Positions 12,584 through 26,182 of a DNA stretch of 26,182 nt are shown here, one piece after another. The stretch's first letter is position 1. Each line of letters starts with the position of its first letter. The notes below the pieces were generated by a model. That model did no database searches. It worked only from the letters and a program-made list of their open reading frames with translations, and was not told where the DNA came from. The translations under genes and the position numbers were made by a program. The DNA is from a virus, in IMG/VR virus record IMGVR_UViG_3300025137_003545, positions 1 through 26,182 of that record; one strand, written 5' to 3'.

Positions 12584-13621
12584 CTAAACTTTTGCTTTTG
12601 TTAAACTTAATTGTGCAAATACTTCTGATGGTCTTGCACTACTTGGTACTAGACTTATACTAAAACCTGAAAAATGTCCTGCTTCTGCCATTTTAACAAA
12701 CTCGTCACCTGTGTTAACCATTACATATTTTAACATAGGAAAGTTAATACTAAGTAATCCATCCCATCCATAATTTGCTTTGTAACTGTCAAAGTTTGCT
12801 TTGCCATACATTCTTTCTGCTACAACAGGATCGTCTTGCATCATTGCTTGAACAAATGCAGCCGGGTCTTTGTGTACTTGACCAAACCATTTTGTAAGCA
12901 TGTCTTGTCTTTGCTTTTTCTTTTCTGGATCGTTTAATGGTAAATCTAGTGCAATGTATGCCACTGCTCTTTTTAATCCAAGACCTTTACTGCCTTGTTC
13001 AAAGTGTTGTGCTATACTTGGAAGAGCACTCCAGTATTCTTTTGCCACCATGTTAGTAGGACCACCTTCTCCAAGACGTCCACCACCTGATGTTGTTTCT
13101 GCTTTAACTTCAATACCTGTGCCGTTAACTTCAATATCACCACCATCGCTTTTTAATCTAATTTTATTAGATAGCATAGCAAGTGCATATTCGCCTGGGC
13201 CTTTTTGTTTCTTACCTGCTCCAAGCATTGCCATTGCTTGAAATATCTTTGAAGTTGTTTCGTCACCACCAAAGAAATCTCTAACACTTCCTACACCTGG
13301 TGTAGTTAACTTTGAAGTTTCAACTACGTTACCTTTAGATAACCTGTCTAAAAATCCATTTAAACTTTTGTAATCAACGCCTGCATGAAATATAATTTGT
13401 GTTAGTGTTTTTAATAACGGCTCAATACTAAAAGTATCGTCTTCTGTTGGAGGTCCAAATGCCTGTGCAACTTTACCTGATATGTCTTTATCATGTAATG
13501 TTCTATAGATTCTATCTAGTAATACTAGATCATCATCATTGTCTGCTTCAAGGCCACTAACCTTAGAAATGATGGCTTTTTTCATTCCATCATCTTCAAA
13601 TAAAAATTCTTTTGCTCTCAT
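12584..13621 (-). CDS. Putative PD-(D/E)xK nuclease with capsid-targeting-like N-terminus
   Basis: 345 residues. The middle holds GPGEYALAML (E144), then GDIEVNGTGIEVKAE with D162, E171 and K173. This spacing fits a restriction-endonuclease-type PD-(D/E)xK core. The rest is helical, with acidic segments and no other domain I recognise. The N-terminus MRAKEFLFE followed by D resembles the T4 capsid-targeting sequence (MKTYQEFIAE), with L-x-E as the cut site for a gp21-type protease. If so, the protein is packed in the head and injected. An AGGA ribosome site lies 7 bases before ATG 13621. A late-like element is at 13647-13655. The nuclease call rests on motif reading alone. Confidence 0.6.
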   Translation of the reverse strand: MRAKEFLFEDDGMKKAIISKVSGLEADNDDDLVLLDRIYRTLHDKDISGKVAQAFGPPTEDDTFSIEPLLKTLTQIIFHAGVDYKSLNGFLDRLSKGNVVETSKLTTPGVGSVRDFFGGDETTSKIFQAMAMLGAGKKQKGPGEYALAMLSNKIRLKSDGGDIEVNGTGIEVKAETTSGGGRLGEGGPTNMVAKEYWSALPSIAQHFEQGSKGLGLKRAVAYIALDLPLNDPEKKKQRQDMLTKWFGQVHKDPAAFVQAMMQDDPVVAERMYGKANFDSYKANYGWDGLLSINFPMLKYVMVNTGDEFVKMAEAGHFSGFSISLVPSSARPSEVFAQLSLTKAKV

Positions 13622-13646
13622 CAGACTTCCTTAACTTCTATACAAA

Positions 13647-13655
13647 CTATTTATC
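13647..13655 (-). promoter_or_regulatory. T4-late-like promoter element before the nuclease gene
   Basis: On the minus strand it reads GATAAATAG, one base from the T4 late core TATAAATA, ending 26 bases before ATG 13621, a suitable distance for a short leader with the AGGA site. It overlaps the rpiB stop codon. Late expression would fit a protein packed into heads. Confidence 0.35.
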
Positions 13656-14087
13656 ACTAAACTTTGAGATCCTGTCTTGATGTCTACCGCCCTCAAAGTC
13701 TGTAATTAAAAACTTTTTAAATATTTCTACTGCAAGAGTGTGATCAGTAATACGCCCACCCATACATAGTACATTGCAGTTTCCGTGTGAACGTGCAAGT
13801 TCTCCCATGTTTATATCAGTACACAATGCCGCTCTTATGTTTCTATGTTTGTTGGCACACATTGCCATACCCTGCCCTGTACCACAAAGTAACACACCAA
13901 AATCATATCCGTTGTGTTGTAAATAATGTACAACTTTGTCTGCATAGTCAGGATAATCTACACTGTTTTCATCTGTGCATCCTAAGTCTACATAAGCATG
14001 TTCTGTAGTAACAAGATATTCTTTAATACGTTGTTTTAATTCGTAACCGCCATGGTCACTTGCTATTACTATTCTCAACTGAACCAT
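13647..14087 (-). CDS. rpiB: Ribose-5-phosphate isomerase B (RpiB/LacAB family)
   Basis: 146 residues, the family length. IASDHGGYELKQ is the N-terminal signature; VDYPDYADKV holds the active-site region; LLCGTGQGMAMCANK carries the active-site cysteine and the anion-binding loop. It interconverts ribulose-5-phosphate and ribose-5-phosphate, feeding PRPP and nucleotide synthesis. A TTG at 14078 is a credible alternative start: it has AGGA 8 bases upstream, overlaps the upstream TGA as TTGA, and gives the common N-terminus MRIVIASDHGG. ATG 14087 has no ribosome site. It ends just before the nuclease gene. Confidence 0.9.
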   Translation of the reverse strand: MVQLRIVIASDHGGYELKQRIKEYLVTTEHAYVDLGCTDENSVDYPDYADKVVHYLQHNGYDFGVLLCGTGQGMAMCANKHRNIRAALCTDINMGELARSHGNCNVLCMGGRITDHTLAVEIFKKFLITDFEGGRHQDRISKFSDK

Positions 14088-14776
14088 CCTACAAAACTGT
14101 ATCTGTTTGTTGGTGCTATATAACTTATAGGACTTACAAAATGTTTGTTTGTATTAGGTTTACTCACGTCAAGTAGTACTAGTCTATTTGCTAATGGCAT
14201 TATTGTTGTAGTTACACGATTTTGCTCATTTAGTAAACATAGTTCTCCGCCATATTCTTTCTTCCAGTTTTTACTAAAGTAAAACAAATATGCTATTTTT
14301 CTTTTTGGATCATAATGCGGTGTAATCCAATTATCATATTTGTAATAACTAAATGTTGGATAGAATGTTTTTAAGTTTTCAAACCCACTAATATTTTGTA
14401 CCCAGTCACGGAATGAAGCACCCTCAAGTGTTGTATAAGCGATGCCTGTTGCAAACTCATGTGTATGTGCGTTGGGTATAGTAGTCTTTTCATCTATGCC
14501 ATGTACTCTATGAAAGTAACTAAAGTCTCCTGGCTTTGTACCGTATACAACTTTTTGTTCTAGCCTTTTGCCATTAGCAGGTTGCATAGCAGGAACAGTT
14601 TCATGCCAGTCATTAATACCGCCTCTGAAGTCATAGTTTAGTTCAGGAACTGTTTTTTGTATTTCATCTAAGTACTCGTCTTGTAGAATACCATCTATTG
14701 CTAACCAGCCATTATCATTCCATTGATCTTTATACGACTGTTGCACACTTTCATCAAATATACCTAAGTTAAACAT
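14075..14776 (-). CDS. 2OG-Fe(II) oxygenase, prolyl-4-hydroxylase-like
   Basis: 233 residues. The C-terminal half has the double-stranded beta-helix pattern: H-Y-D in NWITPHYDPKRKIAYLFYFS supplies the iron HxD pair, YGGELCLLN follows, and NKHFVSPI with the closing NRYSFVGWF supplies the distal histidine and the 2OG-binding Arg. The family hydroxylates protein prolines or other substrates using oxygen and 2-oxoglutarate. The substrate is unknown. The start overlaps the upstream small gene by 8 bases and the end overlaps rpiB. Confidence 0.8.
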   Translation of the reverse strand: MFNLGIFDESVQQSYKDQWNDNGWLAIDGILQDEYLDEIQKTVPELNYDFRGGINDWHETVPAMQPANGKRLEQKVVYGTKPGDFSYFHRVHGIDEKTTIPNAHTHEFATGIAYTTLEGASFRDWVQNISGFENLKTFYPTFSYYKYDNWITPHYDPKRKIAYLFYFSKNWKKEYGGELCLLNEQNRVTTTIMPLANRLVLLDVSKPNTNKHFVSPISYIAPTNRYSFVGWFS

Positions 14777-14954
14777 CTTTTTCCCATTCGTTGCCGTATT
14801 GCTTTAGCCATAATGCGTAACCCCCGTCCCAAATAGTTTTGCCAGTAAAGCCACACTCTAATTTATATATCTGTGTACCATCACCATCATATTCCCAAGG
14901 TCTATCTGTTGGATCTAGTGCTAGTATACCTTCTTGAAAGTCTTCCCACTTCAT
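14769..14954 (-). CDS. Unknown small acidic protein (61 aa)
   Basis: Not recognised. Rich in Trp, Asp and Gly (DPTDRPWEYDGDGTQIYKLECGF, then TIWDGGYALWLKQYGNEW). The start codon overlaps the cupin gene's stop as ATGA and the end overlaps the oxygenase start by 8 bases, so it is a tightly coupled member of the operon. Confidence 0.65.
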   Translation of the reverse strand: MKWEDFQEGILALDPTDRPWEYDGDGTQIYKLECGFTGKTIWDGGYALWLKQYGNEWEKDV

Positions 14955-15241
14955 GGTTCAATTATCTCCACAACTAAATCGTTTACACCTTTAATAAGGC
15001 GGTGATATGTTTCTTTGGGTATAAAGTGCGTATCGCCCATTACTAAGTCTTTAGGTAGTTCGTTGTCCATTTGTAACTGCCAGCCGTCACTGCTCATAAT
15101 AATGATATGCCTATCGTTATGATCTCTATGCCATACTAAGTCATCTTCCCAAATTGTTTCTGGAAAGGTTCTAAGTCTTCTATTGTCTGAAAGTTTTTGT
15201 TCTACAAATGGATGTAGATTACCACCAAGTTCCGCCACCAC
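14951..15241 (-). CDS. Small cupin-domain protein
   Basis: 96 residues in the frame. The cupin core is visible: LVWHRDHNDRHIIIM with a possible metal-binding HxDH, then WQLQMDNELPKDLVMGDTHFIPKETYHRLI with the second cupin motif (G-D, P, H) and LVVEII as the closing strand. I recall similar single-cupin proteins from T4-like marine phages. The role is unknown. The start used is GTG 15241, which overlaps the upstream gene by 23 bases; GGGG lies a few bases upstream. A later start is possible because the first 28 residues lie outside the cupin core. Confidence 0.7.
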   Translation of the reverse strand: MVAELGGNLHPFVEQKLSDNRRLRTFPETIWEDDLVWHRDHNDRHIIIMSSDGWQLQMDNELPKDLVMGDTHFIPKETYHRLIKGVNDLVVEIIEP

Positions 15242-15794
15242 TTAACCCCAAGCTCTTTGCATAGCGAGGTAAACGGCAAGCCCAGTAACCGGCTTTTGTT
15301 TTATCTTTTTTATTTTCACAATCATGTCTAGCGGCAAAACTAGCTCTTGCTTTTGGATCTTTAAGTTTAACGGCAAGATTGCCTCCACCATCTTTAGCAC
15401 CAAAACTAACTTTAACTACGTTTCCTTTTTTGTTCTTTGTATAAACATAAAACTTTTTGGATCCGCCACGTTTTGGTTTGCTTAATTCTACTTTTTTACC
15501 TTGATACTCTGCTTCTGCAATGTTATGATTTTCTTCACTAATGATCATATCTAAAGGAACACTACCAACTCCTACAACCTTTACCCATTCGCCTAACTGG
15601 GTATCGCGAAGTATTTCTTCATCAAACCAATCAAGGTCAGTTAAACTACCTTCATTGTATTGTTCTCTTGCTTGTTTAAAAAGGTCAAAGTAAGCATCAC
15701 TACCAAAGCGATAAACACTTTCATGTAGAGGAATGCTATTTTTTGTGTGGTATTGAATACCTTCGTTTATAGATAATAGTTCATTGTATTTCAT
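15219..15794 (-). CDS. Probable head-packaged protein with conserved C-terminal phage module (191 aa)
   Basis: The N-terminus MKYNELLSINE followed by G fits the T4 capsid-targeting pattern with I-N-E as a protease site. The middle (LGEWVKVVGVGSVPLDM) is not recognised. The C-terminus KARASFAARHDCENKKDKTKAGYWACRL and a closing GLSGGGTWW form a module I recall at the ends of many marine phage proteins; its Cys/His residues suggest metal or DNA binding. No ribosome site is visible before ATG 15794, only the AT-rich gap after the oxygenase gene. Confidence 0.7.
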   Translation of the reverse strand: MKYNELLSINEGIQYHTKNSIPLHESVYRFGSDAYFDLFKQAREQYNEGSLTDLDWFDEEILRDTQLGEWVKVVGVGSVPLDMIISEENHNIAEAEYQGKKVELSKPKRGGSKKFYVYTKNKKGNVVKVSFGAKDGGGNLAVKLKDPKARASFAARHDCENKKDKTKAGYWACRLPRYAKSLGLSGGGTWW

Positions 15795-15802
15795 ATTATT
15801 AT

Positions 15803-16561
15803 TTATGCATAATTTGTAAACAGGCTTAAACCTAATTTCTTATACATTCCGCTATCTAAGAAGTTACTAGCACAGTGCAATCTAACACAATCAAATACAA
15901 TAACATCTCCGGGTACCCAATCGCAACTACGTTCAACACTAAAGCCTTCGCTCCACTGTGGATAATCATCTTTAAACATAGTGCTTATATCTGGTGTACG
16001 GTTATCTTCATGTAGTCCATGTATGCCTGAGTATTCGTACAATGGCCAATTATAAAAACTTTCAATGTCTGTACTACCTTTAAAACATTTAACAGGTGCA
16101 TGAAAAAACATTTGATCAAATATATGAAATTGTGCATCATTATCGTTTATAACTGCATCTTCATGATAAAAACGTTGTAATGGAATAACAAGACACTTAG
16201 CAGGCATAATATCATGTCTGTAGTCTACGTCATTGTGTATTACATAAGGTTTATTAGTTTCAAAGAAGTTACCACCCCAGACATTTAAGTTTAATCCTAG
16301 TTGTGTTGTTACTTTGTTGAATATGTTTATAAAGGAAGGATCATGTTTAAAATTACTAGCAATAAGTGTAGTAGGGCCAGTATTCTTATGATCACGTTGT
16401 GTGTTGTTATGGTATAGTTTAAGTAGTGTATCTCTGTCTGTGCGAGATAAGAATTGTTTTAACACAATGGTATCTGAAACCTTGCTGAGTATTTCATCAA
16501 CTTGTTCTTGTGGACGTTTAACTAATTTGCCGTCTGTAGGACGACCAACATTTCTTGTCAT
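15803..16561 (-). CDS. 2OG-Fe(II) oxygenase-like protein
   Basis: 252 residues. A double-stranded beta-helix is suggested by YVIHNDVDYRHD (H-x-D iron pair), KCLVIPLQRFY and the C-terminal DWVPGDVIVFDCVRLHCASNF, where LHCAS provides the distal histidine, followed by KKLGLSLFTNY with a basic residue for 2-oxoglutarate. The arrangement is phytanoyl-CoA-dioxygenase-like. The N-terminal 60 residues (VGRPTDGKLVKRPQ, then a helical segment) are separate. The substrate is unknown. It is one of three 2OG-oxygenase or hydroxylase-like genes in the window. Confidence 0.72.
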   Translation of the reverse strand: MTRNVGRPTDGKLVKRPQEQVDEILSKVSDTIVLKQFLSRTDRDTLLKLYHNNTQRDHKNTGPTTLIASNFKHDPSFINIFNKVTTQLGLNLNVWGGNFFETNKPYVIHNDVDYRHDIMPAKCLVIPLQRFYHEDAVINDNDAQFHIFDQMFFHAPVKCFKGSTDIESFYNWPLYEYSGIHGLHEDNRTPDISTMFKDDYPQWSEGFSVERSCDWVPGDVIVFDCVRLHCASNFLDSGMYKKLGLSLFTNYA

Positions 16562-16565
16562 TTGT

Positions 16566-16772
16566 TTACTTTTTGTTAGAAAGTTCTACTGGTGAGCAGT
16601 TAGAACAACTGCAATGTTTACAGATCTCTATTGATCTAGGAGAAGCGGGTTGTTCACAGGCATAATCTTTTACTTCTTTCCACAGTGGTCCACCACAATG
16701 TGATTCGTGTCCACAAATACGGCAACTAGTTGATGTGTATCCTGTTATGTCAGTAGCAAAGGTTTTACTCAT
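16566..16772 (-). CDS. Cys-rich putative zinc-binding protein (68 aa)
   Basis: The central part has CRICGHESHCGGPLW, a single Cys in DYACEQP, and then CKHCSCSNC: seven or eight Cys/His ligands, enough for one or two zinc sites. A role in binding nucleic acid or protein is possible, but the family is not known to me. AAGGA lies 8 bases before ATG 16772, and the start overlaps the VOC gene by 8 bases. Confidence 0.7.
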   Translation of the reverse strand: MSKTFATDITGYTSTSCRICGHESHCGGPLWKEVKDYACEQPASPRSIEICKHCSCSNCSPVELSNKK

Positions 16773-17181
16773 AGTAAGTTCCTTGTATGCTTTTTATTTC
16801 TAACATGTTAAAGTTAGGATCTTCTACAAAGAATGTTTCTTGTTGTGTATCTTTGCCTTCAAATCTTATATAAGGATTATCGTAAAATCCAATATTTTCT
16901 TCTACATGCTTCTTTACTTGTATATATGTCTCCCAAGGTAAGTGTACACCAAAATGTGGAACACATACTGCACCCATATCAACATCATGTCTACTTCTTG
17001 TAGATGACTTTGTTTCTCTTGGAGGAGTTTGATGTAGTGTAAGCTCATTGCCCCAAAAGTCAATGTCTTGCCATTTACCTTCTTCGTTTGGACCTAGCTC
17101 ACAACCTAATACGTTTGTGTAAAACGGTAATGTTGTTTTTAAATTTCCGCCTTCAATCGCTAAATGAAAACAATTTGACAT
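16765..17181 (-). CDS. VOC-family (glyoxalase/dioxygenase fold) protein
   Basis: 138 residues, one pair of VOC modules. FHLAIEGGNLKTTLPFYTNVLGCELG is the typical first module with the metal-ligand histidine, HFGVHLPW opens the second, and FFVEDPNFNMLEIKSI ends it with the ligand glutamate. Members include glyoxalases, resistance proteins and ring-cleaving dioxygenases. The substrate cannot be read from sequence. It lies two bases after the gene at 17184. Confidence 0.82.
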   Translation of the reverse strand: MSNCFHLAIEGGNLKTTLPFYTNVLGCELGPNEEGKWQDIDFWGNELTLHQTPPRETKSSTRSRHDVDMGAVCVPHFGVHLPWETYIQVKKHVEENIGFYDNPYIRFEGKDTQQETFFVEDPNFNMLEIKSIQGTYYE

Positions 17182-17183
17182 AG

Positions 17184-18071
17184 TTAGCCTTTTGCGGCGT
17201 GCATAGCAGCCATATGCTGTTTATACTTTTTAGAACCTTTTGGGTGCTTACTATAACCTTCATCAGCATGTTGCTTTGACATTGCAGCCTTAACTGCGTC
17301 AACAGTCATGTTTAATTCTTTAGCAATCTCTTCTACACTTTTTCCGTCTTGTTGTAACTTGTACATATACGGAATTGCTTCGTTCATATCGTCTTCTTCT
17401 AAGTCAGCATCTTCATATGTAGGAACAATTGACATTGATCTACGCAGTACACCAGAAAATTTAGTATTAAGGTCAAACATTGTTTGTAACTGATCAGTTA
17501 AATCGCCACTGTCTTTGTTCATTTCTGCTAATTGAATAATCATATTTTCAAGCATACGACGGTGTTCGCTAATCGCTCTAAGTTGTTTTATCATACGTCT
17601 TGCATTTACTTTTTCGTAATCAGCAGTATCATCTTCAGGTAAGTTTTTGGCGTCAGTTGCTTCTAATTCATCATGTGCAAAAGTTTCTTCTGAGCCGTCT
17701 GCAAACTTAACAGTACACTTGTCGCCTTCAACTTTAATGCACTTACCCGGTGCTTGACCTGGACCTTCTTCTTTTGGAATTACTGTGTCACCTACTTCAA
17801 ATCTTTCTAAGTCGTCAGTCGCTTCTTCTACAGTTGGAGTGGTAATAGCGATTGGCACTTCAGCAGTCATTCCAAGTATATTCTCTTGAATCTCTTCTGC
17901 TTCTTTTAGTGCTTTCCGTAAGCCTTCTTTGATGCTTTTTGTTTTTTTGTTTTTTGCTGTTTCAACTTGAATTTTATGATTTTTTCTACGTTCAGCAGTA
18001 TCTCTTTTTTCAATTTCGTTTAACTTTGCAACGAGATCAGTAAAGGACATATTAGCAACATTATCAGACAT
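17184..18071 (-). CDS. Probable virion-associated protein with coiled coil, small beta domain and HTH-like end
   Basis: About 295 residues from ATG 18071. Order: a charged coiled coil (SFTDLVAKLNEIEKRD on to EAEEIQ); a small beta domain FEVGDTVIPKEEGP through KCTVKFADGSEETFAHDEL resembling a KOW/Tudor-type barrel; a helical region; an HTH-like stretch GKSVEEIAKELNMTVDAVKAAM; and the tail SKHPKGSKKYKQHMAAMHAAKG. I chose ATG 18071 because GGAG stands 11 bases upstream and the upstream gene ends at 18076; a longer frame to 18134 would overlap it. Function unknown; the partner upstream is virion-type. Confidence 0.7.
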   Translation of the reverse strand: MSDNVANMSFTDLVAKLNEIEKRDTAERRKNHKIQVETAKNKKTKSIKEGLRKALKEAEEIQENILGMTAEVPIAITTPTVEEATDDLERFEVGDTVIPKEEGPGQAPGKCIKVEGDKCTVKFADGSEETFAHDELEATDAKNLPEDDTADYEKVNARRMIKQLRAISEHRRMLENMIIQLAEMNKDSGDLTDQLQTMFDLNTKFSGVLRRSMSIVPTYEDADLEEDDMNEAIPYMYKLQQDGKSVEEIAKELNMTVDAVKAAMSKQHADEGYSKHPKGSKKYKQHMAAMHAAKG

Positions 18072-18075
18072 TAGA

Positions 18076-18405
18076 TTATTCTCCGTTTGTATTAGTGGTA
18101 GTAGTTTCTTCGACGTCAGCCTGTACTTCAACATCAGGCATTCCTGCTTGAGAGTTTGCGTCCAACATCTTGTATTCTAAATGATGTGCAACACTGGATA
18201 GGTAGTCACTTGCTTTAGTGATCTTGGCCTGTACCCAACCTTCAAGTCCTTGTTCTTCAGAGACACCAGCAAGTAGTTTATGCAACTCTATTGCATACTT
18301 TGCCGTTTTGTATAAGTCGGAACGTGCCATTTGCACTTCATGATCAACTTCCATATGTCTAGCATCCATGCTAATATCTTCTTTTATAATTTGTTTTGCT
18401 CTCAT
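18076..18405 (-). CDS. Conserved marine phage helical protein with capsid-targeting-like start (109 aa)
   Basis: The N-terminus MRAKQIIKE followed by D fits the capsid-targeting/protease pattern (I-K-E). The body HEVQMARSDLYKTAKYAIELHKLL, LEGWVQAKITKASDYLSSVAHHLEY is a helical module I recall from many marine T4-like phage proteins, of unknown function. GGAG lies 8 bases before ATG 18405, and a CTAAATA late-like element is 31 bases upstream. It is followed after 4 bases by the gene at 18071, so the pair is probably expressed late together. Confidence 0.75.
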   Translation of the reverse strand: MRAKQIIKEDISMDARHMEVDHEVQMARSDLYKTAKYAIELHKLLAGVSEEQGLEGWVQAKITKASDYLSSVAHHLEYKMLDANSQAGMPDVEVQADVEETTTTNTNGE

Positions 18406-18435
18406 GATAACTCCAAACTTATCTTCATTACAGTG

Positions 18436-18442
18436 TATTTAG
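18436..18442 (-). promoter_or_regulatory. Late-like promoter element CTAAATA
   Basis: On the minus strand it reads CTAAATA in the context GACTAAATACACTG, 31 bases before ATG 18405. CTAAATA has been proposed as the late promoter core in cyanomyoviruses. It sits between a stem-loop and a virion-type gene, the right place for a late start. Confidence 0.35.
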
Positions 18443-18443
18443 T

Positions 18444-18459
18444 CTTTTTAAATAAAAAG
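18444..18459 (-). other. AT-rich stem-loop after the first SGNH gene
   Basis: CTTTTT and AAAAAG pair perfectly around AAAT, one base beyond the stop codon of the SGNH gene at 18461 and just before the CTAAATA element. A single C-G pair and no trailing T-run make it a weak terminator at best; it may only protect the transcript end. Confidence 0.3.
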
Positions 18460-18460
18460 T

Positions 18461-19075
18461 TTATTTTAATATTTTATATAATTGCCTTGTAAATGCAAAG
18501 TGTGTTTTTTCTCCAGGATGCACGTTATCTAGTGCATAATCATTTAATTCTCTACATATATCTTCAATATACAAAGGTTCAATTACTGCTTTATTCCATT
18601 TAGGTGTGTCGGCATAGTACTTATTATTAGGTATTAAGTTAATATGTTTAATATCTATATTATTATAAAAGTCATTTAACTGATTTAATCTTAAATAAAA
18701 ATCATTAAGTGTATCAATGTTACTGTGAAATTGTGCATAATATGTTTTACTAGCATTACTATCATTCCATGGTGCTAGTTCTGTTTCTGTGCCATTATCA
18801 TTATAAACAATATGCCTATCTGGATAAGTCCATTGTATAATTACTATATCTTTAGGATTATAGTCAAAGTTAATTGCTTTAGTCCATATTTCTTTATTAC
18901 TAGCACCAGGTCTACTTGTGTTAATACAATCACGGTTAAGTTTACGAGCAACACCATTAGCAAATGATAATTCACTAGCCACAGGACCTGCTTCATTGTT
19001 TTCTTCTTTAAAACAATCTGCTAACCCGTGTCCGTATGCTAAACTGCAACCATGTGTTATTAATCTTGCCGACAT
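18461..19075 (-). CDS. SGNH-hydrolase-like protein, paralogue 3 of 3
   Basis: 204 residues. Block I is LITHGCSLAYGHG (Ser), block II is RPGASNKEIWTKAI, a core strand is DIVIIQWTYPDRHIV, and block V is ALDNVHPGEKTHFAF (D-x-x-H). It is the most diverged of the three tandem copies and the only one starting MSARLITHG rather than MRLVAFG. The family includes esterases and carbohydrate O-deacetylases, so removal of acyl groups from host surface sugar is possible. The start overlaps the middle copy by 16 bases. Confidence 0.7.
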   Translation of the reverse strand: MSARLITHGCSLAYGHGLADCFKEENNEAGPVASELSFANGVARKLNRDCINTSRPGASNKEIWTKAINFDYNPKDIVIIQWTYPDRHIVYNDNGTETELAPWNDSNASKTYYAQFHSNIDTLNDFYLRLNQLNDFYNNIDIKHINLIPNNKYYADTPKWNKAVIEPLYIEDICRELNDYALDNVHPGEKTHFAFTRQLYKILK

Positions 19076-19656
19076 ATATTTAGATACTCTTGTGCTAAAT
19101 CTTCATGAAACTGTGTATCGCCGTGTTCTCCGTCGATTGCTTTATTGCTATTTACATAAATTGAATTCATATCAAATAATATTTTAGTATTTTGCCAACT
19201 AGGAGTTGGACTTAGTGTTCTAATATCTGTACTAAAGTTGTACATGTTAGGTACTAGCATGTTAGCATGATGTATGTATGTGTTTGCTAATATTGCCTTA
19301 TCATATGTATCATGTGTTAATGCTAAAAACCTTTTAACATAGTCTTGGTCGTGCCAAGTTGCTAATTGCTCAACTACACCATCTTGTCTTATTATACAAT
19401 CTCTGTTAGGGTAAGTCCATTGTACTACTATTAAGTCGTCAGGTTCAAAATTAAAGTTAATAATACGATGCCATATTTCTCTATTACTGCTTCCCCATTT
19501 ACTTGCATTAATACATTTACGATTTAAGAAATTTGCCATTAGTTGTGGCCATGCTAATTTACTAGGAGGAAGATCTCCAGGGCCTCCTATGTCTAACCAA
19601 CAATCTTCTAAGCCTACTCCGTAAGTATGGCTACAACCAAACGCAACTAATCGCAT
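19060..19656 (-). CDS. SGNH-hydrolase-like protein, paralogue 2 of 3
   Basis: 198 residues. Block I is AFGCSHTYGVG, block II is SKWGSSNREIWHRIINF, a core strand is DDLIVVQWTYPNRDCII, and the C-terminal D-G-E-H in DGEHGDTQFH is the DxxH position, though the usual H-P-G is changed to H-G-D. The first 23 coding-strand bases nearly coincide with those of the first copy, so the duplication is fairly recent or under strong selection. The catalytic pair seems present but the altered block V makes activity less certain. It overlaps its neighbours by 10 and 16 bases. Confidence 0.7.
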   Translation of the reverse strand: MRLVAFGCSHTYGVGLEDCWLDIGGPGDLPPSKLAWPQLMANFLNRKCINASKWGSSNREIWHRIINFNFEPDDLIVVQWTYPNRDCIIRQDGVVEQLATWHDQDYVKRFLALTHDTYDKAILANTYIHHANMLVPNMYNFSTDIRTLSPTPSWQNTKILFDMNSIYVNSNKAIDGEHGDTQFHEDLAQEYLNICRQD

Positions 19657-20282
19657 GACTCAAATGCCTCTTGTATATAATGATTAACACTCAATCTATG
19701 TATTCCTTTAGGATAATAATTAGGAATAGTTTTATTTTTTACTTTTTGTATTTTATCTAACATATAATTAGCAAATTGTTTATGACACTTTGGACCTGGG
19801 TGTATATTATCTGTTCCTCTGTCACCGGTTTCATATATTGGTTGTAAGTTTCCTAATAACGGAATAGTTTGCCATCGAGGATAAGGTATAAGTGATACTT
19901 CGTCGCAGGCAAAATTATAAATGTTTTTTATCAATGTATTTGCATGTTGAATATAAGTATGACTTTCTATAATTCTATCAAAGTCATCATATGTTTCAAC
20001 CATATATCTTGCTACTGTTTTATTCTTGTGCCAGTCACCAAGTTGCTCTACGTTGTCATTAGTAATAATACAATCTCTATTTGGAAAAGTCCATAGTACA
20101 ACTACAACATCGTCCGGTTCATAGTTGTAGTTAATTATATTCCACCATAGTTCTCGGTTACTACTTCCACTTTTACCTAAGTTAATGCATTTAACATCTA
20201 ATAACTCAGATAGTTGTGTTGGCCAGTTCGTATCACATGCTTCGCCTACGGTATTGCTACAACCAAACGCAACTAATCTCAT
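19647..20282 (-). CDS. SGNH-hydrolase-like protein, paralogue 1 of 3
   Basis: 211 residues. Block I is AFGCSNTVGEA, block II is GKSGSSNRELWWNIINY, a core strand is DDVVVVLWTFPNRDCII, and block V is GTDNIHPGPKCHKQFANYM, the most canonical of the three. It also has a longer basic C-terminus after IQKVKNK. It begins with an ATGA overlap at the apt stop codon, so it is expressed with apt from the promoter at 20839-20867. Likely an esterase or deacetylase; the substrate is unknown. Confidence 0.72.
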   Translation of the reverse strand: MRLVAFGCSNTVGEACDTNWPTQLSELLDVKCINLGKSGSSNRELWWNIINYNYEPDDVVVVLWTFPNRDCIITNDNVEQLGDWHKNKTVARYMVETYDDFDRIIESHTYIQHANTLIKNIYNFACDEVSLIPYPRWQTIPLLGNLQPIYETGDRGTDNIHPGPKCHKQFANYMLDKIQKVKNKTIPNYYPKGIHRLSVNHYIQEAFESCD

Positions 20283-20815
20283 TTAGTAACATCTAATGCT
20301 GATATAATATTACTGAAGTTTACTAACTCAGGATCGTTAATGTATTTTAGATTTATAATTGTTACTGCTCCAACTACTTTTGCACCTGTTTGTTCTATTA
20401 GTCTTTGTGTTGCTAATAAACTACCACCTGTAGCAATTAAGTCGTCTGCAATCATTACTCTACTTGTATGCCCTAGTATACCTTCTTGTAATACAACTGT
20501 ATCTTCACTGTATTCTGTACCATAACTTTCTTCAAGTAAACTACCAGGGTACTTTGCACCCTTTTTACGAATCATTACAAATGGAACACCAATGCAACTA
20601 GCAATTACACTGCCTACAACAAAGCCTCTGCTTTCAATACCAGCAATGTGTGTTATTTCACCGTTTCTATTATATAAATTTTGTAGTTCTACACTTAGTT
20701 CAGCGGCAACTTGATTCCATGCCGTTTGTGCAAATAAACTATTAATGTCATAAAAGTTTACTCCTGGCTCTGGGTAATCAGGGATAGTTCGTATATAATC
20801 TTTAATATCAATCAT
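20279..20815 (-). CDS. apt: Adenine phosphoribosyltransferase
   Basis: 178 residues from the chosen start. The PRPP-binding motif is VMIADDLIATGGSL; IRTIPDYPEPGVNFYDIN near the N-terminus and IAGIESRGFVVGSVIA are typical of APRT, as is PFVMIRKKGAKYPG. It converts adenine and PRPP to AMP. ATG 20815 has GGAG 6 bases upstream; a TTG at 20827 would include that ribosome site inside the gene and is unlikely. It is the first gene after a strong promoter and precedes the SGNH triplet. With rpiB and the BMP binding protein it suggests purine salvage. Confidence 0.92.
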   Translation of the reverse strand: MIDIKDYIRTIPDYPEPGVNFYDINSLFAQTAWNQVAAELSVELQNLYNRNGEITHIAGIESRGFVVGSVIASCIGVPFVMIRKKGAKYPGSLLEESYGTEYSEDTVVLQEGILGHTSRVMIADDLIATGGSLLATQRLIEQTGAKVVGAVTIINLKYINDPELVNFSNIISALDVTK

Positions 20816-20838
20816 TTGCTTCTCCAATGGTTATATAT

Positions 20839-20867
20839 AATATATAACACTTTGGACTAGAAGTCAA
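20839..20867 (-). promoter_or_regulatory. sigma70-type promoter for apt and the SGNH genes
   Basis: On the minus strand it reads TTGACT (20862-20867), 17 bases, TATATT (20839-20844). The -35 box follows directly on the upstream TAG stop codon. The run around the -10 box (TTATATATTATATATAA) is itself an AT palindrome. Confidence 0.7.
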
Positions 20868-21269
20868 CTATTTTGTTGAATAAATGTTTTTAACTTTTTT
20901 AGGATAGCCGGGTTGCTTTGGCTTTTTCTTGCCTTTTAGATAACCCTTAGGATCTACTGCACGGCGTATTGCTTTTTCTTTTCCAAATAATGGAAAGGCA
21001 ACGTGTGCAATATCTGTACTTGCTGTTGCATCTGCACTAGCATCTTCTTTTTTAATTGGTAGTTCAGGGTCGTATGCTTTCCATTCATCATATGTCAAAT
21101 ACATATCTGTATCTGGATCATAATACTTGCCTTCGTTATTATCGTAATAAACAACTTTACCTGAACGTGTCATAATAGGACCTTCTAGTCCATCACGTGC
21201 TTGGTACTTGTCTCTGTCAATTGGCGGAAGGATTGCGTATCCTTCATGTATAATATCATTTATTTTCAT
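20868..21269 (-). CDS. Probable head-packaged protein (133 aa)
   Basis: The N-terminus MKINDIIHE followed by G is a very good match to the T4 capsid-targeting sequence with an I-H-E cut site. The middle has a Tyr/Asp-rich stretch (GKVVYYDNNEGKYYDPDTD, MYLTYDEWKAYDPE), and the tail is highly basic (GYLKGKKKPKQPGYPKKVKN), suggesting DNA contact inside the capsid. The function is unknown. Only a poor ribosome site is visible (AAGG, 13 bases before ATG). Confidence 0.72.
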   Translation of the reverse strand: MKINDIIHEGYAILPPIDRDKYQARDGLEGPIMTRSGKVVYYDNNEGKYYDPDTDMYLTYDEWKAYDPELPIKKEDASADATASTDIAHVAFPLFGKEKAIRRAVDPKGYLKGKKKPKQPGYPKKVKNIYSTK

Positions 21270-21284
21270 AACGTTGTATTTACC

Positions 21285-22034
21285 TTAGTAGTGTTGTGTC
21301 ATGCTCATTACTTTTAGCACATTTTCCCATGTTTTTGGAATATTCATTACCAAGTGTATACTATCATGTCCCCAACATGCAGTCCTGTGTACTTTTCGTG
21401 TATCTACATAATAACTTCTACCGGGTTGTATATCTCTACGTCTGTAATCGTGTTCCCATTCAAATGTACTGTGGTCTGTGTTTTCACTACAAAATGCAAC
21501 AATTCTAAAACAGTCTCTACTTAGTACAGGATGATCTCTGTGTGGTGGAAACCAGCCGCCTTTGTTTAGTTTAACTAACATAGTTCTACCTAGTACGTCA
21601 AACGTGTTTAACAACGGATGTAAACTTGGCATTGCATTGTACAATTCAGTAGGCACATTAATTTCACTTTCTAGTAACTTACGTCCTACACGTTTACGGA
21701 TTTCAGGCATACTTAAACTATCTCCGACAGTATCGCCTTCCATGCCTATTAACATCAAGCCTTCTCTATCGTTAGTAACACCTTCTGTTCTTAAGTACGG
21801 AACCCACTTGTCGTCCCATGCTTTAATTTCACGTTTAAAGTCCTGTACATTTATTAAATGACTAAGTGGAACAAAGTCTCCTAGTGCCTGTAATTGTAAC
21901 TCGCACATTACATCATTAATATCGGGCATCGGTACATCAATGCCTACACCTTTAACATAGTTAATTTGACCGTTAGGTGCAATCCAGTCAATCTTATGCC
22001 CTGAAGGGGCAAATTCTTCATCTTTGTATGCCAT
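21285..22034 (-). CDS. Aspartyl/asparaginyl beta-hydroxylase-like protein
   Basis: 249 residues. The C-terminal domain (about 150-240) has MLVKLNKGGWFPPHRDHP with an HxD pair, CFRIVAFCSE, then DIQPGRSYYVDTRKVHRTACW with the distal histidine and DSIHLVMNIP as the final strand with possible 2OG contacts. This is the Asp_Arg_Hydrox/cupin arrangement. The N-terminal 140 residues include a helical region of unknown role. It follows the small basic gene at 22044 by 9 bases, with AAGGA before ATG 22034. The substrate is unknown. Confidence 0.75.
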   Translation of the reverse strand: MAYKDEEFAPSGHKIDWIAPNGQINYVKGVGIDVPMPDINDVMCELQLQALGDFVPLSHLINVQDFKREIKAWDDKWVPYLRTEGVTNDREGLMLIGMEGDTVGDSLSMPEIRKRVGRKLLESEINVPTELYNAMPSLHPLLNTFDVLGRTMLVKLNKGGWFPPHRDHPVLSRDCFRIVAFCSENTDHSTFEWEHDYRRRDIQPGRSYYVDTRKVHRTACWGHDSIHLVMNIPKTWENVLKVMSMTQHY

Positions 22035-22043
22035 GTATGTCCT

Positions 22044-22331
22044 TTATTTTTTTGTTACGCCGAAATTGTTAGCCCAATTAACTTGTTTAATAAGTTGGTT
22101 GCCTCTATCACGTTCGGCTTTTTTGGTGGATTTTTTCATCTTGTTTGCTTTAGCTCGCAAACGTTTTAGATCTGTTTTACTTAGTTTGTCGCCAGCACCT
22201 TTACCTAAGTATTGTGCGGCTTTACGTTTTAAACTACCAGGTCGGCTGCCTGCTTTGGCTTTGCCGGTAAAGTCTTCCAAGAGTTCGTCAAGTTGATGAT
22301 GTATCCATTTGAGCTTAATAGGGTCTGCCAT
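22044..22331 (-). CDS. Small, very basic phage protein (95 aa)
   Basis: Highly Lys/Arg-rich: RPGSLKRKAAQYLGKGAGDKLSK, DLKRLRAKANKMKKSTKKAERDRGNQLIKQ and a closing WANNFGV. I recall modules of this kind (RPGSLKRK, then Lys-rich helices) from marine T4-like phages, where they may bind DNA. The N-terminus lacks the capsid-targeting pattern. AGGAGA lies 8 bases before ATG 22331. Confidence 0.7.
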   Translation of the reverse strand: MADPIKLKWIHHQLDELLEDFTGKAKAGSRPGSLKRKAAQYLGKGAGDKLSKTDLKRLRAKANKMKKSTKKAERDRGNQLIKQVNWANNFGVTKK

Positions 22332-22359
22332 TGTGTTGTCTCCTGTGAAGTTCTAGTCA

Positions 22360-22830
22360 TTAAGTAATTCCTAGATTAAAAAGTGTATTAGGTGTCTGAG
22401 CCTTTGACTTTTTCTTCTTACCATATTCATACATTGACTTGTATGTAGTCAAAGGAAATTCATTTGTTAGTTTAAGTAATTGTTTCATTGGTAAACTAAC
22501 TCTGATTATGTTTACATCTTGTCTTATGTTTGTTGAGGCCAACCATCTGTGGTGTCCATCAATAATATAATTGTCGCTACTTGCTATAATTGGCTTTTTT
22601 AGTTTACCTTTGTTAATAGCATTAATCATTCCAAAGTCACTAAACTCACCTTGTATTGCTTTTAGTGTTTTAGGGTTTATTGTTTCTTTTTTAAGAGTAG
22701 CACCTGCATCTTGTAAATATTTAAAAAACTGTGGATAGTCTTTTTCTGCTACTTGTGGCATTTTGTCACGAGTAATACCTAATGTATCTTCTGGTTTAGG
22801 CTTAACTATTTTAAATTCTTCTAATCTCAT
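22360..22830 (-). CDS. ParB/sulfiredoxin-like domain protein
   Basis: 156 residues. KLKKPIIASSDNYIIDGHHRWLAST, with DGHHRW at 91-96, is the nucleotide-binding signature of the ParB/Srx superfamily. ParB proteins are CTPases; others are nucleases or phosphotransferases. The flanking residues ISVSLPM and LKLTNEFP fit the family. The N-terminus MRLEEFKIVKP resembles the neighbouring capsid-targeting peptides for six residues but lacks the glutamate at the cut site. ATG overlaps the previous stop by 4 bases. The role may be DNA handling in or after the virion. Confidence 0.75.
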   Translation of the reverse strand: MRLEEFKIVKPKPEDTLGITRDKMPQVAEKDYPQFFKYLQDAGATLKKETINPKTLKAIQGEFSDFGMINAINKGKLKKPIIASSDNYIIDGHHRWLASTNIRQDVNIIRVSLPMKQLLKLTNEFPLTTYKSMYEYGKKKKSKAQTPNTLFNLGIT

Positions 22831-23645
22831 TTTTTTACTGTGTTGCTAACGTTCTTAGCCTTGCCTTTACGATTCTTACTTGGATCATCTCTACGTTTTT
22901 TGTTTACTGCGGCTGCTATTGCTTTTTTGCCACCTTTGGCTCTTAAACTTGCGGCTCTGCTTTTGCTCAAGCACTTGGGTTTACCTTCTCCAGGCTTACG
23001 ATCACCGCATTTACCTATGCGTTCACCTTTGGTGTTGTAACGATCCCAACCGCCGCCTCCGGCTCCGCCCTTCTTGCCTTTACCAAACCAGGCTTTAAGA
23101 TCTTCTTCAATACCTTCTGCATAGTAAGGATTTTCTGGATCTGCATCTCCAGACTCATCGGGCCACCAATCTAATTTATAGTGTTCACCATCTGCAAACA
23201 TACCCTTCATTCCGAGTATACGAGCTTCGTATTCTTCTTTAACTGGTTTTACTCTACCTGCTACTACATCCATTACAAAATTTAGTGTAGTTGCGTTTGC
23301 AGTTAAACTTCCACAACGTGCGCCTACTTCATTCTTTAAATGATCAATTAGTATACTACCACTACACTTTGCTAGTTCGTCACTTAGTTCTTCTGGTACT
23401 TCTAAGTCAACATAACAGTATACAAAGTCATAATGCGGTGCTGGTGATCCATGTAAGATATATTCATCTCTACATACCACACGTTTAAATCCATCGATGT
23501 AGTGCCAAACAGTTTGCTCGTTAGTTATTTCATCTGGAGCACCAAATGTTTTTTCCAACTGCTTACTATAATCTACAGGTTGTGGATGATCCCAATTATC
23601 ATAACCTATGTCTTGTTTTGCTTCCTTGAATTCAAAGAATCTCAT
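22827..23645 (-). CDS. Unknown multidomain virion-type protein (272 aa)
   Basis: The first 190 residues are an unrecognised alpha/beta domain (FGAPDEITNEQTVWHYIDGF, PHYDFVYCYVDLEVPEEL). A Gly-rich linker (KKGGAGGGGW) leads to a basic tail with RYNTKGERIGKCGDR, GKPKCLSKSRAASLRAK and AAAVNKKRRDDPSKNRKGK, a module I recall from many marine phage proteins. The N-terminus MRFFEFKE followed by A is a plausible but weaker capsid-targeting peptide (F-K-E). It overlaps its neighbours by 4 bases on each side. Confidence 0.7.
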   Translation of the reverse strand: MRFFEFKEAKQDIGYDNWDHPQPVDYSKQLEKTFGAPDEITNEQTVWHYIDGFKRVVCRDEYILHGSPAPHYDFVYCYVDLEVPEELSDELAKCSGSILIDHLKNEVGARCGSLTANATTLNFVMDVVAGRVKPVKEEYEARILGMKGMFADGEHYKLDWWPDESGDADPENPYYAEGIEEDLKAWFGKGKKGGAGGGGWDRYNTKGERIGKCGDRKPGEGKPKCLSKSRAASLRAKGGKKAIAAAVNKKRRDDPSKNRKGKAKNVSNTVKK

Positions 23646-23830
23646 TTGCTTTTACTTTTTCCCCAGTTGGCTGCACCAACTTTGCGACACTTAGTTAAGG
23701 CGCCACTTGCATATGCACTTGGCCATACTTTATAACGGCTTTTAACTTTATGATAACAAGCATCTTTTTCGCCTGCTTTTTCATCAAATTGCTCTTCTGT
23801 TATTTCTTGATGTACTTCGTTTATTTTCAT
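23642..23830 (-). CDS. Small phage module protein with CYHKVKSRYKVWPSAYAS motif (62 aa)
   Basis: The C-terminal half DACYHKVKSRYKVWPSAYAS, then GALTKCRKVGAANWG, is a motif I know as a recurring stand-alone or fused module in marine phage and giant-virus proteins, of unknown function. Two cysteines and many basic residues suggest nucleic acid or metal contact. The N-terminus MKINEVHQEITEE may be a capsid-targeting peptide. ATG overlaps the stop of the large upstream gene by 4 bases with GAAGG close by. Confidence 0.75.
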   Translation of the reverse strand: MKINEVHQEITEEQFDEKAGEKDACYHKVKSRYKVWPSAYASGALTKCRKVGAANWGKSKSK

Positions 23831-26182
23831 CCTTCAGATCCTTTACTTAAAGATGCCATTGCTAGTTTTTTATAACTATCATGATATTCAATACGTTGTT
23901 CTAAACCTCGCATGCCGGGATTAATTGGCTTTGTAACTTCTTTAGTATTAGTAAAATCGTTTACTTTAGGTGCAACTCTTTTACTCCAGTACCACAATGC
24001 AATTTTGGCTGCTATTAATGGTTCTGCTGCCTTCTCAGGACTGTTAACTAAGTCTATTCCAATGGCCTTTCCAGCAACTGTATAGTTGTACTTACCTGTT
24101 ATTTGAATGTACCCTCTGCCCTTATACTTTGCACCATCACCACGTTTAGTGTTGCCTAATGCTCGTGCTTTTTTTGGAGCATAACGAGGATCATACTTTC
24201 TAAAATCTAAACTACCACCGTACTCTGTAAGTGTTCTGAACTGATTACTTTCATGAGCACACTGAGCCATAAATGCCGCTAACTCATCTGACTCTAGTCC
24301 TGCCTTTTTAGCAACTACTAACAATACTCTCTCAAGTTTTTTATTTGTAATAGGTACAATTTCAGCCTTAGGCTTTGGAATTGGTGCTTTGTCTACAAAA
24401 TTAGTTGGTATCTTTTTAACTGTCTTTGGTTTTACAGTAAAGTCAGGAATTTTAATCTTCTCACCTACTTGTAATTCGGTAGTATGGTTGTATCCATTCA
24501 ACTTGTATAAAACTTTTGGATCAATTTTTAATTCTCTTGCAAGTGAGTATATAGTATCACCTGGTTGTACTTCTGTTTGTTGTACTACAACTATTTCTTT
24601 AGCAACTTCAGGCTTAGAAATATCTTTAGTAAAGAAAGAACCTGCGCCAAAGGCCGCAAGTGCTATTCCAGTACCAACAACAAGATTGCTGAAAAATCCT
24701 TCAGTCAATTCTTCGCTAATGCTTTCATCTAATTGTCCTTTCAACTTGATTCGAAGTTTCCTTACTGCAGGATCCTCCTCTTCGAGTGTATGGCCACCTT
24801 CCATGATTGCTAATTGAACTGGTGTGTACTTTGTGTATCCACTTAATTGAGGGATTGTTGGTTTAAGTATATCTTCGTGTACTCTTGCTTTTGCTTTTTC
24901 AAACATTTCTTCAAGTGTCTCTACTTGTGTTAAATGCTTTTGCTTGTGTTTACCTTTAAAAAACTTCTTAACGTTTGCATACTCGCTGCCAACAGGGCTA
25001 TCTTTTGTTGCATTTTGTTTTGTTACAATGCCAACACCTGCTGATTCAATTAATCTCGGCATAATTATTTCTGGCATTTTAATATGACTAGTGTCGCTGC
25101 CGTATGGAACGATACTGTCCCTGTATGCTTCTGCATGTGTTTGTTTTTCTTCGGCATCATTAGTTCTATAAAACTTATTTGCAATAGCCATATCACCTAC
25201 TATACTATTAGGTGGTATTTTTACTATTGCTGGTTTATAAAATGTAATTTTCTTAAAATCTTTATTTGTTAAACTGTAGAATGTGCTTTCCCAAGCATCA
25301 GGATGTAGTGCAAATACTCCAGCACGATCTGGAACCATATCTGCAAGTTCATCTGTACCGTCATGATATTTAGGTAACTTTCCTAAGTGTACTGCCATAC
25401 CTTTTTTAATTTGAGGTTGCTTTAGATAATATGATAGTCTACCACGTTGTGTGTTTACGTCAATATCTTCGTATACACTTTCTGATAACTCACTAGCATC
25501 TACTAACCAAACTTTCGCTATACCTTGTGTGCTAATAAGTCCTATTAGTCTAGTGTTACCTGCTACTAAGTCTAAACTTCCATCTGGTTGTTTTACTACT
25601 ATTGGCATTTCGACTGTGCCACTATCCATTGCTTTTTGTAGTCTTGCAACTTTGTCTGGCTCTAAGTCATCTAAACTTTCGCTTCCGTCAGCACCAGTAT
25701 TACCTATTTTCTTTACAGCATTTTTATCAACTGTAATAACTTTACCTTTACTTGCAAGTTGTTCCCAACCTGCTTGTCCTAGTTTATCAAAGTATGAGTA
25801 ACGATTTGCTTCTTCCCATTCTACATCAAATTGTGGCTTGACATAGTTTACATTGACATCTTCCATTACTTCTAAGTCTTGATCTTTTGCAAACTTAGCC
25901 GCGGCTGGTCGCATAAGAACGAAACTTATACCTCCATCTTCTTCACGTGATGTTGCAACCCAACCAATTTTACTTGCCCATTGTTTAGCAAACCTGGCAT
26001 ATAACTTATGTCTATTCTTACTATCATCTGCTTGTTTAGATGCATTGAATGTTATCTTTTGTACATCATCTTCATCTACTGATTTCCACCATTCAAGTAT
26101 ACCTGCTTGTACTGTAGCAAATATTCTAAATTCATCACCAGTACCGGTTGCTTTCATTGTAGCACCCATACCTTTTGTGTCT
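23827..26182 (-). CDS. Large multidomain LysM-GH19 lysozyme-type protein, 5' end outside window
   Basis: The frame runs past the window edge with no stop, so residues are numbered from the first ATG (26169), which is probably internal. Order: TGDEFRIFATVQ, a domain I recall from marine phages (about 1-95); a ParB-like domain with LVAGNTRLIG at 201-210; an unknown domain (about 235-345); a hydrophobic segment at 491-513; a LysM domain at 534-577 (VQPGDTIYSLARELKIDP); and a GH19 domain from about 600 with Glu 640 (AHES) and Glu 649 (LTEYGG), plus GRGYIQITGKYNY. The last two bind and cut peptidoglycan. Between domains are T4-gp21-like sites: LIE-S at 376, and LDE-S, ISE-E and LTE-G at 480-491, so it may be a processed head-packaged polyprotein. 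Confidence 0.85.
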   Translation of the reverse strand, partial: DTKGMGATMKATGTGDEFRIFATVQAGILEWWKSVDEDDVQKITFNASKQADDSKNRHKLYARFAKQWASKIGWVATSREEDGGISFVLMRPAAAKFAKDQDLEVMEDVNVNYVKPQFDVEWEEANRYSYFDKLGQAGWEQLASKGKVITVDKNAVKKIGNTGADGSESLDDLEPDKVARLQKAMDSGTVEMPIVVKQPDGSLDLVAGNTRLIGLISTQGIAKVWLVDASELSESVYEDIDVNTQRGRLSYYLKQPQIKKGMAVHLGKLPKYHDGTDELADMVPDRAGVFALHPDAWESTFYSLTNKDFKKITFYKPAIVKIPPNSIVGDMAIANKFYRTNDAEEKQTHAEAYRDSIVPYGSDTSHIKMPEIIMPRLIESAGVGIVTKQNATKDSPVGSEYANVKKFFKGKHKQKHLTQVETLEEMFEKAKARVHEDILKPTIPQLSGYTKYTPVQLAIMEGGHTLEEEDPAVRKLRIKLKGQLDESISEELTEGFFSNLVVGTGIALAAFGAGSFFTKDISKPEVAKEIVVVQQTEVQPGDTIYSLARELKIDPKVLYKLNGYNHTTELQVGEKIKIPDFTVKPKTVKKIPTNFVDKAPIPKPKAEIVPITNKKLERVLLVVAKKAGLESDELAAFMAQCAHESNQFRTLTEYGGSLDFRKYDPRYAPKKARALGNTKRGDGAKYKGRGYIQITGKYNYTVAGKAIGIDLVNSPEKAAEPLIAAKIALWYWSKRVAPKVNDFTNTKEVTKPINPGMRGLEQRIEYHDSYKKLAMASLSKGSEG

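Follow-up and report, generated by a model that had tools for sequence, protein, structure and literature searches.

In T4, the internal proteins IPI, IPII and IPIII and the Alt protein carry capsid-targeting propeptides (CTS) that are cut by gp21, a protease of the S77 type whose published cut site is L/I-x-E (PMC9026906). Each of these peptides has a short start, M-K in the internal proteins and M-E in Alt, followed by a hydrophobic pair; each ends in [LI]-x-E and stands ahead of a body unrelated to the others. That such a peptide suffices to target a foreign protein has been shown only for the one from IPIII (PMC9026906). In the giant phages phiKZ and SPN3US, a diverged relative of gp21 strips the propeptides from the ejection proteins, cutting behind a short motif whose last residue is E (PMC9026906). 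This motif resembles the tags described here, but these phages belong to a different group and no sequence comparison stands behind the likeness. It has already been proposed that tags carry varied proteins in T4-like phages generally (PMC9026906), so the mechanism is not new. What is new here is the extent of the tagging, the sharpness of the consensus and the borders of the modules that the tags precede.

Closer to the DNA studied here is the T4-superfamily jumbo phage Atu_ph07 (Attai et al. 2018, PMC6102473), which likewise has tagged starts. Eleven consecutive proteins, gp53-63 (L021, 24485-35593), begin with M[KR]-x-x-[DEQH]-L-x-E, and in ten of these the third residue is W. Their bodies differ from the modules described below: most have a YRGM motif and look like ADP-ribosyltransferases, by eye only, and one has a zeta-toxin-like/AAA kinase domain. 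The array falls within CDS 31-76, a range in which 29 proteins were detected by mass spectrometry, although the part of the publication available to us does not name them.

The proteins that a phage carries are usually learned from mass spectrometry of its particles. Few marine phages have such data, and we found none for phages close to the one examined here. A sharp tag consensus allows the carried set to be predicted largely from sequence, covering dozens of families without known function, and brings cyanophage, jumbo phage and T4 cargo under one mechanism.

Six tagged genes in a jumbo phage fragment

The stretch analyzed, hereafter the window, is a phage genome fragment of 26,182 bases, the full IMG/VR record IMGVR_UViG_3300025137_003545. 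It has 36% GC and 40 genes by our count, nearly all on the minus strand. Judged by its family B DNA polymerase, the phage is a T4-superfamily jumbo phage near Sinorhizobium phage Phosso and Agrobacterium phage Atu_ph07, whose polymerases are the nearest (50% and 46% identity, respectively, over the full length). The relatives examined were G001 (126 kb), G005 (306 kb, with the same gene cluster) and many shorter contigs.

The original prediction named six N-termini sharing a T4-like form, and all six are present in the window, each starting at an ATG on the minus strand (Table 1). Most were said to end in (L/I)-x-E, and five do, the exception being MRFFEFKE, which ends in F-K-E. The statement that the bodies are unrelated also stands, as the window bodies give no mutual match (blastp E of at least 0.38). 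One ranking has to be reversed: MKINEVHQEITE-E, taken for a weaker member, is instead among the best supported, I-T-E being the commonest junction form of the KDACY module.

Table 1. Positions of tags, tagged proteins and accompanying features within the window
Feature	Position	Strand	Remarks
Tag MRAKEFLFE	13595..13621	-	345-aa protein; predicted cut between E9 and D10
345-aa tagged protein	12584..13621	-	starts MRAKEFLFE-D
Tag MKYNELLSINE	15762..15794	-	191-aa protein; predicted cut between E11 and G12
191-aa tagged protein	15219..15794	-	A191 module, phrog_7595
Tag MRAKQIIKE	18379..18405	-	109-aa protein; next residue D
109-aa tagged protein	18076..18405	-	DHEV module
Tag MKINDIIHE	21243..21269	-	133-aa protein; next residue G
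133-aa tagged protein	20868..21269	-	OCRE-like module
Tag MRFFEFKE	23622..23645	-	272-aa protein; F at P3; next residue A
272-aa tagged two-module protein	22827..23645	-	
Internal I-E-E site of 272-aa protein	23103..23111	-	directly ahead of WFGK module (DLKAWFGK...)
Tag MKINEVHQEITE	23795..23830	-	62-aa protein; next residue E
62-aa tagged protein	23642..23830	-	KDACY module, phrog_727
C-terminal HKKGT module (E↓GYSKHPKGSKKYKQHMAAMHAAKG)	17187..17258	-	part of protein at 17184-18074
780-aa multi-module protein	23827..26169	-	LysM and GH19 (chitinase/lysozyme) domains; no visible tag
ATAAATA, T4-type late-promoter core	13648..13654	-	26 nt ahead of 345-aa ATG
ATAAATA, T4-type late-promoter core	15800..15806	-	5 nt ahead of 191-aa ATG

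We consider it very probable that the shared N-termini are T4-type capsid-targeting propeptides cut after [LIVF]-x-E, while cleavage, packaging and injection in the window phage itself are inferred. The first six or so residues of the tag (M-[KR]-x-x-[ED]-hydrophobic) would bind the prohead core and carry the protein into the prohead, where the S77 (gp21-like) protease would cut after the E and remove the tag; the body would then stay in the head with the DNA and presumably enter the host cell. The inference of injection rests on analogy with the T4 internal proteins and Alt (PMC9026906).

The tag stands out within its own protein families. Across 14 aligned members of the 345-aa family, whose identities fall as low as 26%, no residue within the first 16 is invariant except M1, R2 and E9. 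Residues 1-9 of the 345-aa protein are disordered in the predicted structure (pLDDT < 50), and residues 1-7 of the 191-aa protein also fall below 50. Further into the 345-aa family, the invariants D162..E171-x-K173 form a PD-(D/E)XK-like signature, which suggests a putative nuclease; this is unconfirmed, and the restriction-endonuclease fold gave no significant match. The bodies are otherwise poorly annotated. Pfam and PDB searches with the 345-aa protein returned no match and a fold search no significant one, PDB sequence and fold searches yielded no usable result for either the 345-aa or the 191-aa protein (rotavirus polymerase matches in the PDB searches, E 0.016, were discarded as chance), and for most of the tagged bodies a Pfam search found no domain.

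ATAAATA is about five-fold depleted in the window, with 2 copies on both strands against about 10-13 expected, and both copies lie just ahead of tagged genes. In G005 the same core stands ahead of several tagged genes as well as of tail and portal genes. This placement fits late expression of the tagged genes and is only supportive.

Enrichment and consensus of the tag

Among the checks proposed with the original prediction was a scan of all N-termini against shuffled controls. We used a strict pattern, ^M[KR].{2,3}[DEQNH][LIVFM][LIVFMTH].{0,3}E, which was drawn up post hoc from the window genes and for which the related loci serve as the out-of-sample test. The pattern matches 5 of the 40 window genes against a mean of 0.10 expected when residues 2-16 are shuffled; no shuffle out of 20,000 gave as many as five matches, and none of the 173 internal Met positions fits. 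Among 3,686 distinct N-termini of the related contigs, from about 270 other loci, 161 fit against 7.6 expected, and these matches fall on 41 unrelated body clusters. The sixth window tag, outside the strict pattern, is supported by relatives. For the tag MRFFEFKE, the relative L264 has the N-terminus MKILEITTLQE↓KASYDNW.

An equal frequency of the motif among replication proteins was to have refuted the prediction. Among homologues of the tagged window genes the strict pattern fits 37 of 127, and among those of untagged genes, which include 39 DNA polymerases and 17 clamps, it fits none of 265 (Fisher 1e-20, a value that is only nominal because the homologues are related sequences). These counts also bear on whether the N-termini merely reflect a bias of translation starts or of composition, with AT-rich, Lys/Arg-rich beginnings and no targeting role. 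The GC content given above and the frequency of MK or MR starts among phage genes would agree with such a bias, but the shuffles preserve composition, the homologues of neighboring untagged genes lack the motif altogether, tags with identical residues use different codons, and tagged proteins occur in virions. On the strength of the shuffles and the untagged neighbors we reject composition bias, for which hardly any room remains.

To describe the targeting peptide without presupposing its beginning, we assembled 54 tags, 11 of them hand additions, requiring only that hydrophobic-x-E mark the border to a conserved body and that a Met lie within 26 residues, with nothing imposed on the start. 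Their consensus reads M-[KR 85%]-x-x-[ED 74%]-[IVFL 98%]-...-[I/L/V]-x-E, with K/R at position 2, E/D at 5, a hydrophobic residue at 6 and, in this set selected for hydrophobic-x-E, I/L/V at P3 in 91%. Measured against the T4 CTS, the tags here mostly place the hydrophobic residue one position earlier, at 6 and not 7, and have a length of 8-15 residues.

The strict pattern does not capture every tag-like start. In G001 such starts lie in a single 15-kb cluster (11 by eye), and the pattern matches two, both inside it. Phosso has few strict matches, 3 against 0.9 expected, so the form of the tag varies among phages. A looser pattern (R2) was dropped, its enrichment being slight in several genomes.

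Within the window, the gene at 1436-1654 (MKTGDLIIEA) was rejected as a look-alike: its G005 homologue (MLKQIIINAAKK) lacks the motif, and the start is probably an ordinary helix. The start of the gene at 22360-22830 (MRLEEFKIVKP) has no hydrophobic-x-E. A 61-aa protein at 14769-14954 begins with MKWEDFQE-G, resembling the M[KR]W..L.E starts of Atu_ph07, and no homologue of it was found among the fetched sequences.

Head protease and virion proteins of other phages

Finding the gp21 protease of the phage had been proposed as a further check, and the 306-kb relative G005, which has the cluster in common with the window, was found to encode an S77 protease. By Pfam S77, gp21-like proteases occur in G005 (E 3e-29), Phosso, Atu_ph07, T4, S-SM1 and S-CREM2. 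The gene is absent from the 26-kb window and was not found in four related contigs, all of these being fragments. Sites of the same kind are read from the sequences of major capsid proteins, as FLTE↓A in T4, HLSE↓A in G005, LLTE↓A in S-CREM2 and LME↓ in Phosso and Atu_ph07.

Virion proteomes provide a test of the tag in other phages. We scanned the cyanophage S-CREM2 with a pattern taken from the register of T4 IPIII only, M[KR]xxxxF[LIMFV]xE, allowing every possible start in the first 40% of each frame so as to be fair to the non-virion set. The pattern fits 4 of the 52 virion proteins detected by mass spectrometry and none of the 192 others (Fisher p 0.002). The four are a SAM hydrolase, an APH-like kinase, a cytidylyltransferase and ORF13, all non-structural or of unknown function. 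ORF136 (MQTFSMFFSE), also detected in virions, fits when Q is permitted at position 2. The S-CREM2 virion paper makes no mention of a targeting tag. In S-SM1, the sole annotated match to the T4-derived pattern is T4-GC190, which is reported in the virion. The T4-derived pattern thus picks proteins present in the virions of two cyanophages. The three S-CREM2 enzymes and T4-GC190 begin with MKxxxxFLxE, comparable to the window tags, but their register is T4-like.

The proposal that the shared peptide is an address tag for packing proteins into heads is supported by the enrichment, by the protease in relatives and by these cyanophage virion proteins. The peptide could instead be a tag with another purpose, such as membrane attachment, binding of a host factor or regulated degradation, since it is short and amphipathic and there are no functional data in this clade. 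Yet its site matches those of the major capsid proteins and of the T4 internal proteins, small proteins whose genes neighbor those of portal and protease start similarly (Atu_ph07 MKLTELFNPLTE, Phosso MRYNEFSKESLDHLSE), and virion detection extends to both cyanophages. We regard a purpose outside the head as very unlikely.

Module borders and long tagged proteins

Compared with T4, there are far more bodies behind the tags here, and modules are met within long proteins too, where the same site again stands ahead of them. In other phages, the KDACY, DHEV, A191, WFGK, OCRE-like and HKKGT modules follow a short tag, lie well within long proteins, or are found in both settings. A DHEV-like sequence is embedded in a 389-aa protein of G001 and a 589-aa protein of S-RIM8, and the OCRE-like module in an 899-aa protein of G005 and a 564-aa protein of G001. 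Just ahead of the modules, [LIVMF]-x-E is present in 60 of 84 N-terminal and 63 of 114 internal contexts, against a background of 0-7% of upstream positions; the sequences are related, so these are not independent events. KDACY follows hydrophobic-x-E in 20 of its 22 N-terminal contexts and in 35 of the 52 internal ones, where the upstream sequences are unrelated, and WFGK begins after such a site in 9 of 9 and 7 of 8, respectively. All 10 HKKGT contexts have E at P1 and G at P1'. Support is weaker for the OCRE-like family, with 5 of 21 internal contexts, and DHEV has the junction E in 22 of 38 N-terminal contexts.

These borders bear on whether the tag is removed at all. It might address proteins to the prohead core and generally remain in place, its E-rich end being part of the binding helix. 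Some homologues do retain the M-[KR]-x-x-[ED]-hydrophobic start without the E, and targeting in T4 withstands some changes that block cutting (PMC9026906). However, [LIVM]-x-E is the most constant feature, falls precisely where the conserved body begins, and is kept within long proteins that have no N-terminal helix there. Retention of the tag therefore appears unlikely, and we favor a propeptide that is cut off. What counts against such a propeptide, besides the lack of a protease gene in the window and the few strict matches in Phosso, is the lack of N-terminal peptide data for any of these proteins, the homologues without the E, including a sub-clade of the 191-aa family with MIKIADILSTTPG-IDYH, and the F at P3 of MRFFEFKE.

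The internal sites raise the possibility, to which we give even odds, that the head protease of marine T4-like phages cuts long tagged proteins, made up of interchangeable modules that each follow [LIVMF]-x-E, into separate cargo inside the prohead. The window has an instance of its own in the 272-aa protein, with the border site GIEE↓DLKAWF. In S-CREM2, ORF160, which combines a KDACY module with a WFGK counterpart (the latter by eye), was detected in virions by seven peptides. The polyprotein reading rests on border conservation and on ORF160 in virions, without biochemical data. If it is true, a phage could gain cargo in two ways, by giving a single module a tag or by placing a module in a chain that already has one. 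The borders tell the expected start of each mature protein, which is useful for expressing or solving such proteins.

The 780-aa protein is a candidate for processed cargo. It begins 13 bases from the contig end, and its true start may be missing, as the frame runs to that end. Its LysM and GH19 domains are preceded by stretches common to other tagged proteins of relatives.

Two further observations concern neighboring and related genes. At 18461-20282, within the tagged cluster, lie three successive untagged proteins with GDSL/SGNH-like starts. A 143-aa tagged protein of a related contig (L164:6952-7383), for which Pfam and PHROG gave no match, has by eye a protein-kinase-like glycine loop (GSGDYGSVYLL).
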